Assembly: GCA_033065855.1 (NCBI GenBank)
Contig: JAVXUO010002601.1
Coordinates: 62,001-126,000, forward strand
From: Escallonia rubra
Lineage: Eukaryota; Streptophyta; Magnoliopsida; Escalloniales; Escalloniaceae
DNA length: 64,000 nt
Direction of reading: 5' to 3'
Part shown: positions 39,597 through 54,794 of the stretch, one piece after another
Layout: every line of letters begins with the position of its first letter
How positions within the stretch are numbered: the first letter of the stretch is position 1
Translations under genes and position numbers: made by a program
The notes under the pieces: generated by a model
Databases searched by the model: none
What the model saw: only the letters and a program-made list of their open reading frames with translations
What the model was told of the DNA's origin: nothing

Positions 39597-42500
39597 ATGA
39601 ATTCCCAACAAACACCTCTCTTGCTCCTACTTTTGCTACTTCCGCTCACTCTCGCTGCTGCCTACCCCACTCCACTCAACTGTACGGACACCACTCGCCT
39701 CTGCACTTCCTTCCTCGCCTTCAAGCCCAGCCCAGACCAGACCCTCGCCGTAATCCAGAGCATGTTCGACGTGCTGCCAAACGACGTCACTTTTGAAGAC
39801 CGAAACGACTACGTGTTCGTCCGCAAGAACTGCTCCTGTGCGTCGCCTGCCAAGAAGTACCTCACCAGAACCACCTACACCGTGAGAGAGAGTAACGGAT
39901 CCATGCACGACGTCGCGATTCGGGCGTACGGTGGGCTGGCTTTCTTGTCGGGCTATTCGAACCGGACGGCCCGGGCCGGGGCGGTGGTGTCGGTCCAGCT
40001 GATGTGTGGGTGTTCGAGTGGGCTGTGGAATTATTTGATGAGCTATGTGATGAGGGATGGGGATAGCGTGGAGGGCTTGGCGAGTAGGTTTGGGGTGAGC
40101 ATGGGCAGTATTGAGAGCGTGAATGGGATTAGCGATCCCGACAATGTTACTGTGGGGGGACTGTATTACGTTCCGCTGAATTCGGGTATGGCCATCCTTT
40201 CGCTCCGCGTCTGTTCAATTTGATCAATTTGGGTGTTATTAGTTTGTGTTCGATTGGCTAATTTGACGTGATAACGAAATATTGAAATTAGTTGTTTTTC
40301 ACTACCTGCGGTATTCTGTCATTGGATGATGAAAAAAGGTCGTATTGGTCATGTCCTATGGCATTCTAATTCGTGTTTTGTGTGTGTGTGTGTGTGTGTT
40401 TTACGCTTCCGGAGGCACTTGGAAGATCAATGTGCACGAGAAAGCAAGGAGAGCTTTGATAACTTGCTTTTTGGCATAGACAAGCAGAATTAAAAGTACC
40501 TTTAGTCAACCCCCGAGTTGTTAGGACGAGGTTTCATTGAGTTGAAATACTTTCTGAGGAACCAATATCTTTCCATTTATCCATTGTATCTCTGTGACCC
40601 TCTATTAGTCACTCGATTGGAGCAGTACTTATGTTAGTATCGCGTAAAAATAGTCAGGAACATCAACTTACTGAGGAACTTATGTCATAATGTGAACAGA
40701 AACACATGATGAAGTTTTAAAGAAAATCTGGAGGATAGAGGCCAAGGCCGAGGGTTCACAGAATATAATTCTAAGAACCCTTAAGATTTGCGTTCTCGTG
40801 GACAGAAATACTTTTTCATGATGGAAAGCTGACGTATCATCACTGAAGAACCATCATGTGGGTCCAAGGACACTACTGAAGCTAGAATTATGCAGAATTG
40901 ACTATTTCATTAGGTGTCTAATATGTGGTGCTGCCACCCGGAAGAAATAGAAAATCAAAAAGTAGTTGGCTTTCATTACACATTGTAGCTTTATGTCAAT
41001 ACATTGTTTCTCATGTCAAAGTCTAGAAGGTAGATCCTTTTATTTGGATTGAACAATACTCCCTAGGCACCAGGCATCATGTTTTTTTTACAGTTTACGC
41101 ATTTGGTTGTTTTCTTGTAGTCCCTGGTGAGCCTTATCCTGCACACAATGACACTCCTCCAGCTCCAGTTCCAGCACCTTCTGTAAATAATGGTACAGGT
41201 ATGGAATGTCTCCACATAGGTTACTGTTGTTAATTTTGGCTGTTTTATTTCTTGGATATATCATATGAATTATTTCTTAAGGTAATCCATTGCCGAACTT
41301 TGTTTTCATTGGACTTTTCTTGCTAGAAGTAATGATGAGTAACATTGCTGCAACTTCGTTGCCTTATTTACTAGATGATTTTGTGAAGAATAAATCCATG
41401 CAATGTCCTTAGAAGTCAAGTGAAGCTTTTTCGACTCTGAACTGGCAATAGTCTCAAGAATCTGGAATCTGTGATGCAAATTTGTTGGGATAAGAAAAAG
41501 TATGTTATAAGAAAGGTCAAGAGAAATGTGGTTTGAAAATTATATCACGTGCAGTGTGCACGAGATCAACCATCCATATACTTATAAGATACAAACATAG
41601 GCTTGTATAGGAAAGAGAAGGAAACGACCTGCATCATTGTCTTCAACTTCAAGAAAAGGAGTCTTATACACATAAAAGCCAGCTTATTTTTCTCTCTGTA
41701 ATGCAATGTCGACAGGGCTACCCTCCACTCCTTCCTCGCGCTTTCTCCTGTTCATATAGCCTCCACTTCTGCATCATGGCTCTAAGTCTCTAACCGGACG
41801 TGACATGAGAGGACTTTTGTAGTACTGGCGTCTGGCTATCAATTCAACAAGCTAGCTACACATATCCTACCTGTTTACATAGAAGCAAGGCAGTGCCACC
41901 TAGTCTCTCTGTGTGTGTGTGTGTGGGGGGGGGGGGGACGGGCGGCTGGGTGTGGGGCTGACTATTTAGCGAACTGTTTGGTACCATTGTGGCATTTAGC
42001 TTAAGTTTTTTACAACTCCAGTATAGAGGCCAAGTATAACGATCATATGGATTTCCCTCTTATTTCTGTAACCTGTTTATACACGTAATATCTAAGGGGG
42101 CTGATCCACACCAAGTGCTGGGAAACCCTCCATTTTTTCAGTTATGATCCGGCCGTCCACGTCACACAATAGTCAGCTTAGATATTTTCTTTAAACTTAA
42201 TTCGCCTAACCGCCCCAAAGAAGGGTGGTCGGTTCTCATCTCGAAGTTGCTTCTCCTGTTCCTTTGCTTCTTCTATTTCTCTACTCTTCTCACACTCTCA
42301 TCAGGTTTGACAAACTCCCTCGCCGCCATCCTCACAATCACCACCATGATTGTAAGAGCCACCGCCGCCGATTGTATTGCGCCAACGATGCCGCTGCCGC
42401 CACAGCACCTTAAACACCATAATCCCGCTTTCTCTCACTCCCTTCGTTTGCACGATGACTGTCGGCTGTGGTAATCGACCTTCGTTCCGGATCCAGCCAT

Positions 42501-45500
42501 AGTCGTCTTCTATCTAGTTGCCATCTCCACCCCGCACTTTTACAAGATCCATGAAATTACGAGGTATCGTCGGTGGTGGTCGACCCTTAGTTGCAGGAAA
42601 CTCCTAATATGGTGACGTTTCTCTCTCGGAAACTCGCTTTTGCGATCCCAAGTTAGGAGCTCCATGGGATCTCGTCCCAAGCCAATATGGGAACTCGATC
42701 CTGTTAGCTGGATAGAGATGCATGGAACAAGTGAGAGAATACTTGAAAATCAAACCCTTTTCAACTCATTCCTTGTTTCTCTCTTCCTTCAAGTCCTTAA
42801 AGACTCTTTGTCTGTTGTTGTTGGCTATGTAAACTATACTAAAAAAGTGATAATACTTTTTACGTATTTATTTATTCAAGCCGCTCCCTACCTCAGATTC
42901 TTCTTGGTGCTTACGCTCCCCCGCCCCCGTTCCCGCTCCCGCCCCCGCCCCCGCTTTGTGCAACTAAGGGTCGACCATCTGCAATCGTGGGTATCATGGT
43001 GGTATCGCTGAAGTTGGCTGTGGATAGAGGTGTCAAACGGGCCGGGCTTGTTCCGGACTTACTCATAAATATGAGGGCCCAGCCTAAGTTCAAGCCATTG
43101 GCCCAAAATTTAGGGCCGGACCCACGCCTGCCCAAATTTTTTTTAAAATCCTTTTTAATTTTGCGATAAACTTAATTTTATGATAAATATTTGAGTTAAT
43201 TACGCGATTGACCACTGTACTATTAGGCAAATTTCACTTTGACCACTGAACTTTGATTTGTGTCAAAGTGACCACTGGACTCTTTAATTTGTTCAATTAA
43301 GTTATTCCGTTAGGTTCAGTTAACAAAAGGTCCGTTAAATCATTTAATTTAGGGGCAAATCCGTCAGTTTCTATTCTTTTTTTTCTTCCTCTTCTTCTTC
43401 CTCCTCCTCCTCCTCTTCTTTTTCATTACGGCGCAACCTCCATTTCCTCTGAAGATTGCCTTCTGGTTCCCGTTGGCAGATCTCTTCAACCTCCCTTCAA
43501 TCTGAGTCAAACTCAAACACATTGCTGAATCGCAACCCAAATCTGAAATCAAACCACGTTTGACCGCACGAAAGGAGTTTGGTGAGAGAGATGCCATCGG
43601 AGATTGAGGAGGTCGAGCCGATCGATGGGGATTCCTCCTCCGCCACGGCGGGGTGACTGTTGGCGGGAGTGTGGTGGCCCATCGGCGACAGATCTGGTGG
43701 CTTTTTACGGTGGGAGTGTGGTGGCTGTCGGTGGGAGTGTGGTGGCCCATCGGTAACATATCTGGTGGCTTTGGGCACCGGTGTTCTGGTCGTTAGTTAT
43801 TCGGTCGGCGTTGGTGTTGGCGGTGGTGTTGACCAACCAATCGAGACGAGAGGTAGCGGTCGGCGCCGAGAGCGGCCTCGGGGAGCACGGCGAACTGCAA
43901 GACGTTGTCGGTGAGGAGCATGTCCGACAGCTCCCTCTGTATCTGCTTGGCCACCATTTTCACCCTCCTCGGATTCGCCATACACCTTATCATGCTTAAC
44001 CTCCTCGTTCTACCAGTACTGGTAATCGGTGTCTTTATACCGGCGACGGCCTTCGGTAATAGAATCGGCGGCGTGAATCCCTTAGTTTTGACTGAACATC
44101 TTTGAGCGGAACTTGCGATTGACGGTGCAGGATGTCGGGGAAGAGTAACGAGCAGTGCTTGGTGCGAGTGTGGAAGATGAAACAGAAGTTGCGGCATTAC
44201 AGAACGTTTCTGTGTCCCTGTTTCTTCTGTTCTTCGAGATTTGAAGAGAATGGATGAACGCGAAGGGGGGAACTTGCGATTTGTCGATGGTCGTCACTCC
44301 ATGTCAATTGGCGTGGGATTGGCCGGTGATCCACGACTAACCGGCGACGATGAAGGAGGCGGTGCAGAAAGAGTCCATCGGAATTTCACAGACATGGAAT
44401 AAAAAAGGAGAAAGAAGAAGAAGAAGAAGAAGAGGGGGATGAGGAAGAGAGAGAAAAAAAATTATTGAGTGACGGATTTGCCCCTAAATTAAAGGACTTA
44501 ACGGACTTAGATTTGACGGAATCTAACAGAGTGACTTAATTGAGAGCAATTGAAGAGTCCAGTGGTCACTTTGACACAAATCAAAGTTCAGTGGTCAAAG
44601 TGAAATTTGCCTAATAGTACAGTGGTCAACCGCGTAATTAACTCTAAATATTTTAATAGGCCTTCCTCCTTTAATATGGGCTTGGGACCGGCTGCTTGTA
44701 AGCAAACATGCGAAGGTACCTATTCTTTTTTATGCATAGGAAATTAATTGCCAAAAAAAAGTGAAGTTACCTAATCAGCATGTCCATATATATTCTTTAT
44801 TTTAAACATAGTTGATTCGTTTGAAAAATATCTAAGGCGACATATATTTTGAGAAAACTATATCCTAAGAAGTTGAGAAAAGAAAAAGAAAAAGAAATAG
44901 CCTGATCATCTGGAAGATCTTCAACGCTCGAATTGTTGCTCTGCTTATCATAATAGCTAGAAGCTATCGACTAATAATTAAGAAATGCTTGTAATTGAAA
45001 ATTTGAGAGAGTTAGTACCTACTAACAAACAAAAATGCACAAGAAAGCTTGTGTTTAAGAGATAGTTGTTAATTGTAATTGAGGTGTGAAGAATGTGAAG
45101 AGAATTAATCAATTAATAAAATTTTCAAGTCTCATAAAAGACCAAAATACCCTAAAACTAGCCATTTATAGTTGTTGGGAAGGGTAAATATGTAAAGCTG
45201 CATAAAAGAGTTGTTGGAATAAGGTTGGATGGGTGTGCGATGCGGACGGCCGAAAATCTTCAAAAATAAAGGCATCTCAGCCATCAATTGTGCGATGTGG
45301 ACGGCTGAGATGCGCTGGAAAAAAAAAAAAATCAGCCCTGAGTGTGGATTAGCCCCCAATACTAATACCTAATTAGTTACTGTTGTCCTGTCCTGTTAAC
45401 TAACAAGTTATGGGGGCCAATGCTCATTACTAATAATCATTTATCCCAATTTTTCTAGGGATAGCAAGCGCTTAGCTGTGTAGTTATAGAAGAGAAGGGT

Positions 45501-48500
45501 CAAATCACTACTAACGAATATGAACTGAAGCAGTTTTTGAATATAATCTGAATCATCACATATTACATATCAGATCATTTTTTGGTGATATATGGCAAGC
45601 CTCTTTTTATTTAGTAAAGCTACTGTCTATACTTTTTGCTTACATCGTGTATACGGGGGTTTGTGGCCATTGGGGCCTTAGAGTGATATCTTTTTATCTC
45701 TAATCTTCTTGCAATATAAACCGTGAAGTAAATAACTCACCAGTGCATTGATTTCTCACTAACTGTTGGTCGTTTGCTCTCATCTTTGTCCATCCCTCCT
45801 TTCATTTCTTATTAAGTTCCTGGTACGCTGCTATTCTATGGTACAAGATTCTATTATCTTTTTGGTTTTTTGCAGTACAACAGGTGAATCACAAGGGTCA
45901 CATACCGTATCAGTGGATTATAGGGAGTATAGGGGTTGTTTTGGCTCTGATTGTTGTAGTTGTACTTATCTTTGTCTTCTTGAGGTCGTCAAGTGCCAAA
46001 GATCCCGATGAGAAGACTTCTCCTAAGTTCCAAGTTCTTGGGACCAGTAGTTTTTGTTGTGCTTCCTGGAGATACAGCTGCTACAAATCTGGGGATTGGA
46101 GACAAGCTAATGGGGAATCAAGTGACCGTCATATAGATATTCCAAAAGGTTTGAATTATCTCACCATGTTTATTTGCTCATAAAGGTTCAATATATGCTT
46201 AAGTCTCTCTCTTTTTAATTACTAACTTTCTTATGATGAAAGGCATCCTTTGTGGCCAAAAGATTTTTGTCAGTCTTTGATGCCTTTTACCCCTAATGTT
46301 CCGTGCTCGTTTAATTTCCAGCTGGTGTTGGTACTGATGTCTTTGAAATGGAGAAACCTATGGTTTTCAAGTATGATGAAATTCTTTCTTCTACTGACGG
46401 TTTCTCCGATTCGAATCTTCTTGGGCATGGAACTTATGGTTCTGTGTATTACGGCCTCCTTCGCGACCAGGTATCAAGCTTTCTACTTTGTTTTTGGTAG
46501 TCTGTTACATTAAATAATTTTTTCAAGAGATTTACCCAGCAGCACCATTATTGGACTGTATTATGAATCCTTTCAGGAAGTTACAATCAAAAGGATGACT
46601 GCTACAAAAACTAAAGAATTCATGGCAGAAATGAAAGTTTTGTGCAAGGTTCATCATACAAATTTGGTAATGCCTATTACAGTTGCATTTGTGCCTGCTC
46701 CTCTTTTCCTTATTGTTTTCTATGTCGTTCTTCCTTTATTGCTTATGTTTCAGCAGTTTAGGGTTTGACTTTATTTGTATTTAACTTTATCAAGGTAGAA
46801 TTAATTGGTTACACAGCTACTGGTGACGAACTCTTCCTCATTTACGAATATGCCCAGAAGGGCTCCCTTAAAAGCCACTTGCACGATCCTCAGAACAAGG
46901 GTATGATTTTATATATCTGCACTGTTGTAGAGATACTGCATCGTTGTTTCTGATTAGAAAACGTTGCATAACTATGTCAAACTTGCGCTTCTAGTTCTCC
47001 AACACACATTGAGTTGGCCCAGAAAAAGGAAGGAGAAAAATTTAAGCCTTAAAAGCTGTTCTGACGGTGTTACTGCTTGAATTGGTTTTTAAAAAGAAAA
47101 GGATCTCAGACTACTTCTTGTTCAGAGTTTCAAGCTCGAGCCCATTGGCTCTGCTGTTATGCGCACTTAGATGCTTAGCCTTTAAGCTTTGGGCTACGCA
47201 CAGTTGTCTTAACGTGGAAGCATATATGAGTTGTGTGATTATCCAAATATCACCTTTCTGTGGATATTCCCTGGATGCTACTGTTTGTATGAGTGAGTGT
47301 TTGGTTTACCCATGGAAACACTAGGTGATATACGAGCATAACTCTGTCTTTTGGTTAGGTCATAGCCTCTCTTGGATCATGAGGCTACAGATTGCACTTG
47401 ATGCTGCTCGAGGTCTTGAATATATACACGAGCACACTAAGCCTCATTATGTGCATCGAGATATAAAGACGAGCAATATCCTACTTGATGGTGCCTTTAG
47501 AGCAAAGGTTCTTACCTATTTGCCTCATTGCTTTCTTGTTATTGGCCCCTAGTTTCTTATTGGTTTTGCTGGATACAGATTTCAGATTTTGGTTTGGCAA
47601 AACTTGTTGGAAGGGCCTGGGATGGAGAGGCTTCAACAACAAAAGTTGTTGGAACTTTTGGTTATCTCGCTCCTGAGTAAGTCTATGTACTTTAGCAACA
47701 GCAGACTGCAACAAGGTTTCTTCGCTATGCTTTACTCCCCTGATTGTTTTGCAGATACCTAAGGGATGGCCTAGCCACAAATAAGAGCGATGTATATGCA
47801 TTTGGTGTTGTTCTTTTTGAGATGATATCCGGAAAGGAGGCTATTACACGAACTGAAGGCAGTGTGATGAAGACTATTGAGAGACGATCATTGGCATCCA
47901 TTGTAAGTCCCGCTGTTGCACGATTTAGCAATATATTGGTTTGTAGGTCGTGCACGTAATGTTGTGTCCTGAAAAATGGTCATAAGGATTAGTGTGAACT
48001 AATGCAGATATGGATGATGTGCCATAAGTAAAATGTAAAAATGCTAGAAAACTACGAAATTTGAGACTTGTGGACATAAGAAGAACCTCTTTTATATACA
48101 GAAGTAAAAGCTTTTAGATTCCACTTCATTGAAACTCGTAGTGATCTTCAGTTTCTAAGAGCAGCTCTAGTTATACTTTTAGAGATTTTCTTTTCAACTT
48201 CCATCTCCTATTTTACGTTTGTAATTTGTTCCTGATTCTCCTTCCTGCCTTCTTCTAAAAGTGAAAAAGGCCAAATGACTATAAAGGAAGAAACTGAGAG
48301 AGAAAAAATAAGATGTGATATAAGTTCCTTGTCGGTGGTATTAGTGAGCATTAAAACCCCTGTATGAAGAGCACAATGAAAAACGCCATGCTTCTCAGAC
48401 TGACTACGCTTGCTGTGTAATCTACTTTTGAACACGTTGCTTTGCTGGAAATGGTCTCCTTCTAGTGTTGATGGCTGCACAGTGGGAACAGTAAAAATGG

Positions 48501-52123: not shown

Positions 52124-54628
52124 TTACTTGCATAATGAGGCTAGCACTCGGCGAGGGGGGTCAAATGGCCTTCGAGAGTGAAGAACTGCCAAATTATCGA
52201 TCAGCAAAACATCTCCCTTAAGCCAAGGAATGGCGACGCTTTCCTCGTCGAGGATTCTCAGACAGTCATAGATGACGTGAGCCGGAAGTGGGATTCCGTC
52301 TCCAAACGTTACTGCCTTCACTGGATCATTTCGTGCATCTTTCCAGCCTGTATAAGCAGCCACCATGCTGTTGAACCAAATCTTGCGCTGCCTTGTCTTA
52401 TCGAATTTGATACCTGGGACTGGGCCCATGATTGTTTTTACTCCATCCCCCATCCATTCCAACTTCATACCCAACTTGGCAGCCCTGTTACATGTTCTTA
52501 AGAGTCATGGACCAGAGAAAACCTTACATACAGTTCATAGACGAATACAAGATTACCAGATCAGAAGGAACTGAATACATAATGGTTATGGAGTTCTGCT
52601 TGTAGAAACACGAGTCAACAAATTTCAATAAAATTCAAGTTGTGGCTAAGTTAAAAAGAAGCTGCATTCTGGAATTTAGAGGGGCACTCATTTATTTACT
52701 TCACTTTAAATCACACTACTTGTACTAAGTATGACAGCTATATGTTAAGCGCAAGGAGACCAACAAAGAGATTTGAAGCTCCATGGAGGCTTTCTAGAAA
52801 CCTATTTCCATTTGGCCTGCGCATGTGGTTGCATTACAAGCATAGATTTAAGGTTGAGTATTGATCTGCAAATGCCACAGCTCTTACCTTAGTGTTCTGT
52901 ATAAACAAAAACATTACTGTTTATGGGTTGCCATAAGGCAGTAAATTATGTGACTAAAGGATTTGGGAATTTTTGATGTAGAAAGTGGGAGGGGTATCTT
53001 GGCCACTTCTGCACATGGAAAGGTCCATCAAAGCTGACTAGCAGTTACAGCAGTACAGGTGATGGAGTCACTAATATACTCGGAGAAGCTAGAAGCTCGC
53101 TTCAAATTAAATTTCAGTCTTCAATAAAATGAAGTGTTTATTACTTCAGCCCTCTGATGAGTGTTTATTCTGTAAGGACCGAAGGGAAAGGGATTGTTAA
53201 AGTCCACATTTATAACGTTTAGTGTCTATTCTCCAAATCTCAGAAAGGTTAGTCATGGTGAGGAGTGAGATCTATTTTCACAACAGCTATACAAACAGAA
53301 ACAAGTCATCAGAAATAAAAGATGAGGAACAAACACTGACCTTTCCTCGGCAACACTTTTGTCTTTAGTCAAGAATGTAGACCTCCAGCCACGACCAATT
53401 GGCGATGAAGGGTCATCCTCTTCTCCCATTACTCGTGTATAGATCAATCCATGCTCTTCTAGTCGCTCGACAAATTCTGGATACCTCTCTTTCATCCTCT
53501 CATATACGATATGACTGAGAACAATAGGCGTTTCCCCCCCGCTTCCTGGTTCTACTTCACAGAAGAAGAATAATTTGGATGGGTAGTCCGGAACCTGTAA
53601 CATGAGCCAGGAAAGTTCCGGTCAATCCTAGAAGCATCCATAGTCATAAAAGTTATAATAAATGGATTTTCAAGTTCCTGAGTCTACAAGCAACTGATGA
53701 AAATCTAGACAAACATGTAGCAATCAAACGGTTCTTAACCAGAAAAATGCAAAAGGTACCGACAGATACTCCACGTGAAGCTTAATCATTTACTTCTGCC
53801 TTCAAGTTTTAGCACCTTATCTGAATGGATATAACCACAGTCCACAGGGGAAGCAAAGAAGAGCTTGAAAACTGCTATTTAATCTAATAAATAAACTAGC
53901 TCCATCTTGTGAGTTGGAGCACATTTGATGCCAAGAAAAACTAAGAAAAGGTTAAGGCACAATCTCAGTCATTCAGGCTCAAGTAACTAAGTCCTAAAAG
54001 CGAAACTATTTTTGTTCTAAGCGGGGGTAATATGACCATTCTTACAAGGATGACACCGCCCCCAGCAACCGCGATAATTGGTGATCATTAGCTAATGGTC
54101 TGAAGTTCTAAACAAAGAAGGAACTCCACGTAGCATAATTGCAAAGTTTGAACCAAATTCAAGACAAATAGCTGAATACGCATAGACAACGTTCAACGTA
54201 CCAAAAGCCATAAAAATTTCGAACCGAATTTCAGCGAAACTGTATTCACAAAAGGGTACCTGAGACATTTCATGATGGAAAGGAATTTTCTGATCAGGCG
54301 GGGACTCATTGGCGGTGAAAACACGGCCAACAACGTTGGTCCGAGGGGCGGCGCCGCCAATATAAGGCAGTTCATCGTAGCCGAAAGCTTCAACCACGTC
54401 ATTGAAGTCAGAAGCAGAGTTTACGGGGAACCCTCTGAACAAAATAGCTCCACTTTTGTAAAGAAGAGAGTCCAGCCATGGCTTTTGATCTCTTATGGCC
54501 TGTGTAGTAAGAGACAGGGTATTAGGGAGCTTACTTTTGGGATTTGGGGTGAGGACTGCTGGGAAAAGGAGCTGATTGTATGGTTTCTGTTGAGGTATTT
54601 CAACTGCTGTGAAGAAGCCCTCTGGCAT
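52124..54628 (-). CDS. TfdA/clavaminate-synthase-like Fe(II) dioxygenase
   Basis: Predicted non-haem Fe(II), 2-oxoglutarate-dependent oxygenase of the taurine/TfdA family; the plant members (At3g21360 type) have no established substrate that I know of. Three exons join in frame on the minus strand: 54628-54260, 53594-53341 and 52484-52124, giving 327 aa, close to the family length. The iron ligands are recognisable: H118-x-E120 in PFHHEMSQ and the distal His310 in LAVLHSRRPF; Arg313 or Arg319-320 would bind the cosubstrate carboxylate. The family motif LFRGFPV lies at about 63-69. No signal peptide is evident, so it is probably cytosolic. The gene converges on the LYK gene. Nothing suggests it is inactive. 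Confidence 0.94.
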
Positions 54629-54794
54629 GGTTTTGCTTAGGTTATCAGTTGTTATCCTTCCAAATCAGTGTAATCAGGCAGAGCTATGGAATATGAATAG
54701 TTTGGCAGTGGGCATGTTTCTTCCCCCTCTGCTGTATTTGTGTCTAGATTCAAGGAGGGGGCAATGTTGGGAACTCAAGACCACTGCAACTTTG

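Follow-up and report, generated by a model that had tools for sequence, protein, structure and literature searches.

Pack-MULEs, non-autonomous Mutator-like elements (MULEs) that carry pieces of host genes, mobilise thousands of gene fragments in plants, and the mechanism by which they pick these fragments up is unsettled. Pack-MULE transcripts, at times chimeric, are often seen and are not required for membership in the class. Within a 64,000-nucleotide stretch of the Escallonia rubra genome (hereafter the window), a sequence-only reading had proposed that the second intron of a LysM receptor kinase (LYK) gene holds a complete Pack-MULE with a fragment of the gene for chloroplast ribosome-binding factor A (RBFA). 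The locus raises the question of how a piece of RBFA came to lie inside a mobile element, and whether it does anything for LYK or RBFA. We addressed this question by comparing the element with its relatives and with its donor gene throughout the 566 Mb assembly.

A Pack-MULE in intron 2 of a LYK gene

The element occupies positions 43193-44644. Its 14-base termini are identical and inverted (GAGTTAATTACGCG), and it is flanked by a perfect 9-bp target duplication, TAAATATTT, both as the sequence-only reading had described. That reading had also recognized terminal inverted repeats (TIRs) but had taken them to be about 175 bases long, whereas they extend over ~237 bp at 85% identity (205 of 241 aligned columns); the best ungapped arm spans 111 nt at 93% and runs 14 nt past the element on either side. 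None of the seven frames of 80-165 aa within the element matches a transposase in Pfam, which bears out the earlier claim that no transposase is carried. One frame gave an Ac81 match in Pfam, which we took as chance (E = 0.094, far under the cut-off).

The 9-bp duplication is within the 9-11 bp of MULEs, and the TIRs are within the 100-500 bp range given in the accessible text of PMC3310237. The element carries a host-gene fragment that has its parent elsewhere (420 of 428 bp identical to RBFA), and this cargo is rich in GC, at 53.5% against 38.8% over the remaining 9 kb around the parent. It is a non-autonomous Mutator-like element with a piece of RBFA, that is, a genuine Pack-MULE of a known kind, with the reservation on the MULE assignment that the searches made found no transposase gene with these ends. 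Its parts are listed in Table 1.

Table 1. Coordinates in the window of the element, its parts and its host intron
Feature	Position	Strand	Basis or remark
LYK intron 2, host of the element, 4677 bp	41199..45875	+	splice sites read from sequence; domains by Pfam
Left copy of target duplication, TAAATATTT	43184..43192		perfect duplication
Left TIR, ~237 bp, 85% to right TIR, terminates in pyrimidine-rich tract	43193..43429	+	inverted-repeat alignment
Left interior, colinear with RBFA-less relatives (element 238-650)	43430..43842	+	alignments
Chimeric open frame, 134 aa	43793..44197	-	118 RBFA codons and 16 element-derived residues; coding selection not detected
Captured RBFA fragment, 428 bp, ATG at 44197	43843..44270	-	98.1% to C1925:436054-436481
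Left capture junction, element interior/RBFA, 2-bp microhomology (GA)	43843..43844		alignment to acceptor and parent
Right junction, templated filler GGAACTTGCGATT, first two bases overlap RBFA G-run	44269..44281		identical to 44108-44120
Right interior, colinear with RBFA-less relatives, one mismatch at start	44282..44407	+	alignments
Right TIR	44408..44644	-	inverted-repeat alignment
Right copy of target duplication	44645..44653		perfect duplication

The host gene has LysM and kinase domains by Pfam. From splice sites read in the sequence, its exon 1 ends at 40185, exon 2 covers 41121-41198 and 45876 is the first base of exon 3. The element does sit in a 4.7-kb second intron, with its RBFA cargo on the minus strand, antisense to the plus-strand LYK gene, as first proposed. 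The element is nested in an older repeat. Six relatives of this repeat (73-77% identity), chosen for a right-flank match starting near the insertion point, all align across that point and lack the element, although two of the six cover just ~20-30 bp on the left; in the three alignments shown there is a single target-like stretch that resembles TAAATATTT without matching it exactly. The assembly yielded no haplotig or allelic empty site. Each flank matches just itself over full length, so the empty-site evidence is paralogous.

The intron holds other repeats as well. An abundant one at 42700-42970, ~220 bp to the left of the element, has at least 39 other copies at 91-96% identity among the best 40 of 1041 candidates, and a second family at 44954-45200, to the right, has many copies at 78-85% among the matches listed. 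Further along the window, the minus strand at 52124-54664 contains exons of a TauD/TfdA-type dioxygenase gene.

The cargo derives from an RBFA gene on another contig

The sequence-only reading had made its case depend on a full-length RBFA gene elsewhere in the genome, and the parental locus was found: the cargo aligns without gaps to C1925:436054-436481, a stretch of contig C1925. It begins 73 bp ahead of the ATG, runs through codon 118 of the 132 in exon 1 and stops 41 bp short of the parent's splice donor (read from sequence), so it is not the whole exon. The start of the coding part would correspond to the putative chloroplast transit peptide named by the sequence-only reading. The earlier account was right about the origin in the first exon and about 118 RBFA codons remaining open on the minus strand; the span it gave, 43844-44197, was too narrow at both ends, missing the bases before the ATG. 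Eight differences separate cargo from parent, five of them common to all 12 RBFA copies aligned and three private to the window copy.

By Pfam, exon 1 of the parent matches PF02033 positions 1-42 (E = 0.00088, under the curated cut-off), and positions 41-102 are matched above the cut-off at C1925:432388-432573, 3.4 kb downstream of exon 1 on the same strand, which is the sole PF02033 match found in the genome. A single stop in that stretch, immediately ahead of VAKVYISVF, is taken to lie in an intron. Together, these matches indicate that the parent is RBFA, and no other RBFA gene was detected in the genome. The 118-aa fragment itself had no match in Pfam or in solved-structure searches.

The parental locus also bears a diverged MULE-like end (L027:4762-4990, which is C1925:436762-436990), 281 bp upstream of the captured stretch. 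Its identity is ~75%, its best long match to other sequences is 76%, and no partner end turned up over a distance of 2.2 kb. In the present assembly, the 9 kb around the parent contains this one end rather than an element on each side of the captured stretch; the donor may have changed since capture.

RBFA-bearing copies form one clade within a larger family

Searching the genome with the element recovered sister elements, which the sequence-only reading had suggested looking for. At least 12 copies carry RBFA, 10 of them full-length, including the window copy, and two with a common internal deletion (L018 and L019); further relatives carry no RBFA. All copy counts are lower bounds from the best 40 of 1354 candidates scored. 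Perfect target duplications of exactly 9 bp flank 22 of 36 distinct loci, another 10 deviate by no more than one mismatch or a 1-nt shift of the end, and four have none. No perfect duplication in this set has any other length, and a cross-locus control gave 4 matches in 1406, the number expected from two loci present twice. Among 20 further family elements, 16 have a perfect duplication. A duplication length pointing away from Mutator, which the sequence-only reading had named as fatal to its proposal, is thus not what the family has. The pairs L025/L026 and L037/L038 each represent the same insertion on different contigs, with flanks 99-100% identical, and are duplicated assembly pieces.

A 25-mer from the TIR occurs 293 times in the genome. 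Among the 100 of these places that were listed, TIR pairs lie <2 kb apart, save for one element with a nested insert. A search for MULE transposases with PF10551 listed 150 matches of 3309 candidates, and the 9-kb stretches around three of them contain no TIR matches; within these places (100 of 293 TIR sites and 9 kb around three transposase matches), no autonomous partner was found. The family member L028 (C1294:330297-335538) contains a ~3.15 kb insert bordered by a repeated 5-bp stretch, probably another transposon.

We built a tree from the parts that the elements share, using 26 of 38 fetched rows after dropping two duplicate loci, one row with a nested insertion and nine with other interiors, and rooted it on three RBFA-less elements (L039, L040 and L041). 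The 12 RBFA copies form one clade with support of 100/98 amid RBFA-less elements, in a tree whose bootstrap had not settled and whose branching order among RBFA-less rows is weakly supported. At the RBFA position, L040 has ~84 bp, L039 ~62 bp and L041 none, and RBFA is absent from all three; the other RBFA-less relatives have ~88 bp there and are colinear with the element on both sides. One clade with outgroups that lack RBFA suggests that the fragment was most likely captured once, into a pre-existing element that later amplified. The end branch of the window copy is 0.8%, which makes the earlier description of a fairly recent insertion a fair one. L018 and L019 lie 0.1% from their common node and have different target duplications, so movement continued until recently.

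The capture junctions carry microhomology and templated filler

Because RBFA-less relatives have ~88 bp at the site of the fragment, the capture can be read as a replacement inside an existing element, and both junctions can be compared with acceptor and donor. On the left, the acceptor ...CCAACCGA and RBFA GAGACGAG have GA in common, a 2-bp microhomology. On the right, the RBFA G-run is followed by AACTTGCGATT, which together with the two preceding G residues is an exact 13-mer copy of 44108-44120 within the cargo, and the acceptor resumes beyond this filler with one mismatch. A shuffled 11-mer is found in the cargo at a rate of 1e-4. In L018 and L019, too, the deletion is bridged by filler, a 16-mer duplicated exactly from cargo sequence (0 of 20,000 shuffles for a 15-mer). 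Such copies point to DNA synthesis in which the template slipped.

A second host gene in the same acceptor type

Four other elements of the family (L033-L036) carry a piece of a wall-associated-kinase-type gene, 784 bp long in L033, whose GUB_WAK_bind match falls just under the curated cut-off (E = 4.5e-6). Here the piece replaces acceptor positions 184-240 (57 bp). Both sequences have CAA at the right junction and nearly match at the left one, so that the junctions appear similar to those of the RBFA capture. These elements are also missing a further ~328 bp of the acceptor (positions 323-650) on the right-hand side of the capture, and they do not therefore represent a simple one-step replacement. 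Similar gene copies lie 40 kb apart on C1544: L074 spans the entire 784-bp piece at 97.4%, and L075 is closer, at 98.4%, but lacks the first ~28 bp. The parent is one of these two or their ancestor.

Other gene fragments occur in the same family. We scanned the frames of eight of the 20 further elements, which come from the TIR pairs listed and include several near copies of one another, and three have clear gene fragments (a CCHC zinc knuckle in L078, PPR repeats in L083 and leucine-rich repeats in L094) and five have none; the one frame scanned in L042 had no gene fragment match. We consider the odds about even that the family copied at least two host genes from other contigs, RBFA and the wall-associated-kinase-type receptor, into the same acceptor type, each time replacing 57-88 bp, with microhomology and, in one case, templated filler. 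If this were true across the ~150 family members, plant Pack-MULEs would gain genes mainly by template-switching gap repair and not by tandem fusion.

Probable capture by repair of a break within the element

In a ~1.1-kb non-autonomous MULE, 428 bp from the 5' part of RBFA took the place of ~88 bp of interior sequence, and the resulting element spread to at least 12 sites, including LYK intron 2. We infer, with a probability of about 0.75 for this reading as a whole, that the replacement arose while a break or gap inside the element was repaired and that the RBFA piece has since travelled as a passenger. In such an event, a break or gap would open within the interior of the acceptor element, and a strand end would anneal to RBFA at the 2-bp match. 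Copying of 428 nt of RBFA would follow, then a backward slip of synthesis that recopied a few nucleotides of the new piece, before the strand joined up with the far side of the break. A transposase from an autonomous relative, acting in trans, would then mobilise the copies. The account has weak points: the autonomous partner was not found among the places searched, the final step into the acceptor has one mismatch, and the filler and microhomology are short enough that end joining could also yield them.

The main competing account comes from Pack-CACTA and Pack-TYPE elements, in which two elements inserted on either side of a gene fragment, here RBFA exon 1, are fused by complementary terminal deletions, and the hybrid moves with the DNA between them. 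The accessible parts of PMC8903248 and PMC13317346 report this for Pack-CACTA and suggest it for all TIR superfamilies. Such local capture could have made use of the MULE-like end that lies 281 bp away at the parent, and the extra ~328-bp deletion of the second capture also speaks for it. That end is, however, the sole element-like sequence found in the parent's 9 kb, at ~75% identity, and the filler was copied from inside the cargo. Moreover, the left and right parts of the element are colinear with one acceptor and just ~88 bp are missing between them, whereas two independent uniform breakpoints would leave 0-88 bp missing with a probability of 0.078; the same arithmetic done by hand for the 57 bp of the second capture, its extra deletion set aside, gives ~0.05, and ~0.004 for both. 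The colinear replacement, the microhomology, the templated filler and the similar second capture favour template-switching repair, and we regard fusion of neighbouring elements as unlikely. That the element belongs to another superfamily of DNA transposons with long TIRs is scarcely credible: the searches made linked no transposase to these ends, as such an origin would allow, but each of the 22 perfect duplications has a length of exactly 9 bp, and the ~237-bp repeats have the length of MULE repeats (PMC3310237, accessible text).

The RBFA fragment appears to be a passenger

A frame of at least 130 aa is kept in 7 of the 12 RBFA copies and disrupted in the other five. Counted from the commonest base, the coding part of the cargo in the 10 full-length copies has 18 nonsynonymous and 9 synonymous changes, which agrees with a simulated neutral ratio of 13639 to 6361 in a comparison of small numbers under a rough mutation model. 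With L018 and L019 set aside, there are 30 rare changes over 10 x 428 bp of cargo and 97 over 10 x 1024 bp of backbone, the latter inflated by L015, so the cargo diverges at about the same rate as the backbone. For L015 itself, with 0 changes counted in the cargo and 22 in the backbone, we considered gene conversion and rejected it, because 12 of its 25 listed differences fall in a microsatellite (1242-1262) that is probably misaligned and one falls in the cargo. We also rejected a function for the 134-aa frame as unsupported: since the full-length copies drift neutrally and five of 12 are broken, an open frame is no sign of function. By these counts, the RBFA piece behaves as a passenger, without signs of selection on its coding sequence.

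The orientation of the cargo means that LYK pre-mRNA running through the intron would contain predicted RNA antisense to RBFA. This RNA, or a TIR hairpin in the pre-mRNA, might be a source of small RNAs with a regulatory effect on RBFA or LYK; alternatively, the frame might encode a new protein. Several observations could be taken in this sense: the frame is open here and in most copies, the plus-strand RNA is predicted to fold with a TIR stem (minimum free energy -682.2 kcal/mol for 1452 nt, a value without a shuffle control at that length), and captured sequences in maize are described in the accessible part of PMC13317346 as siRNA reservoirs for donor genes. Any long-TIR element would, however, give such a fold, and the neutral ratio of coding changes, the five disrupted copies and the matching divergence of cargo and backbone all argue against recruitment, which we regard as very improbable. 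Most likely the insertion is neutral, with no effect on LYK or RBFA.

Comparison with known systems

Pack-MULEs, capture of GC-rich sequence and a repair-based proposal for capture are already in print, as the accessible parts of PMC8277862, PMC8903248, PMC3310237, PMC13317346 and PMC4858842 attest. How capture proceeds is described there as yet to be understood (PMC3310237), and a 2026 review allows that an undiscovered mechanism might exist for unlinked genes (PMC13317346). Our literature searches, which covered subscription journals in part, found no comparable plant case among the papers listed, either of RBFA in a Pack-MULE or of Pack-MULEs or Mutator-like elements with filler, microhomology or template switching. 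A close parallel is offered by the Pack-TIRs of animals, which arise through gap filling or FoSTeST: in the accessible text of PMC8277862, microhomology has a median of 2 bp, as on one side here, and copies become multiple after transposition. Those elements are in animals, and the authors call applicability to plant Pack-MULEs worth exploring. Cluster 18 of the maize Zm-Pack-PIF elements likewise divides into members with and without an internal gene-derived insert (PMC8903248, accessible part), but it belongs to the PIF superfamily and is read as neighbouring insertions that fused; in the present case a short interior was replaced and the junction has templated filler.

The element resembles the Pack-MULEs of rice, maize and tomato, as a non-autonomous MULE with a 9-bp duplication, long TIRs and a GC-rich 5' gene fragment that has multiplied into several copies. 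It differs from them in that the gene-free acceptor type survives alongside, so that the junctions are readable against both acceptor and parent. Acceptor relatives standing beside RBFA-bearing copies make a disputed capture mechanism easy to study: because acceptor relatives, donor gene and product all survive at high identity, the event can be followed at single-base resolution. The element is of an ordinary type, and what it adds to the known Pack-MULEs is this survival of all three together, which makes it unusually informative on capture.
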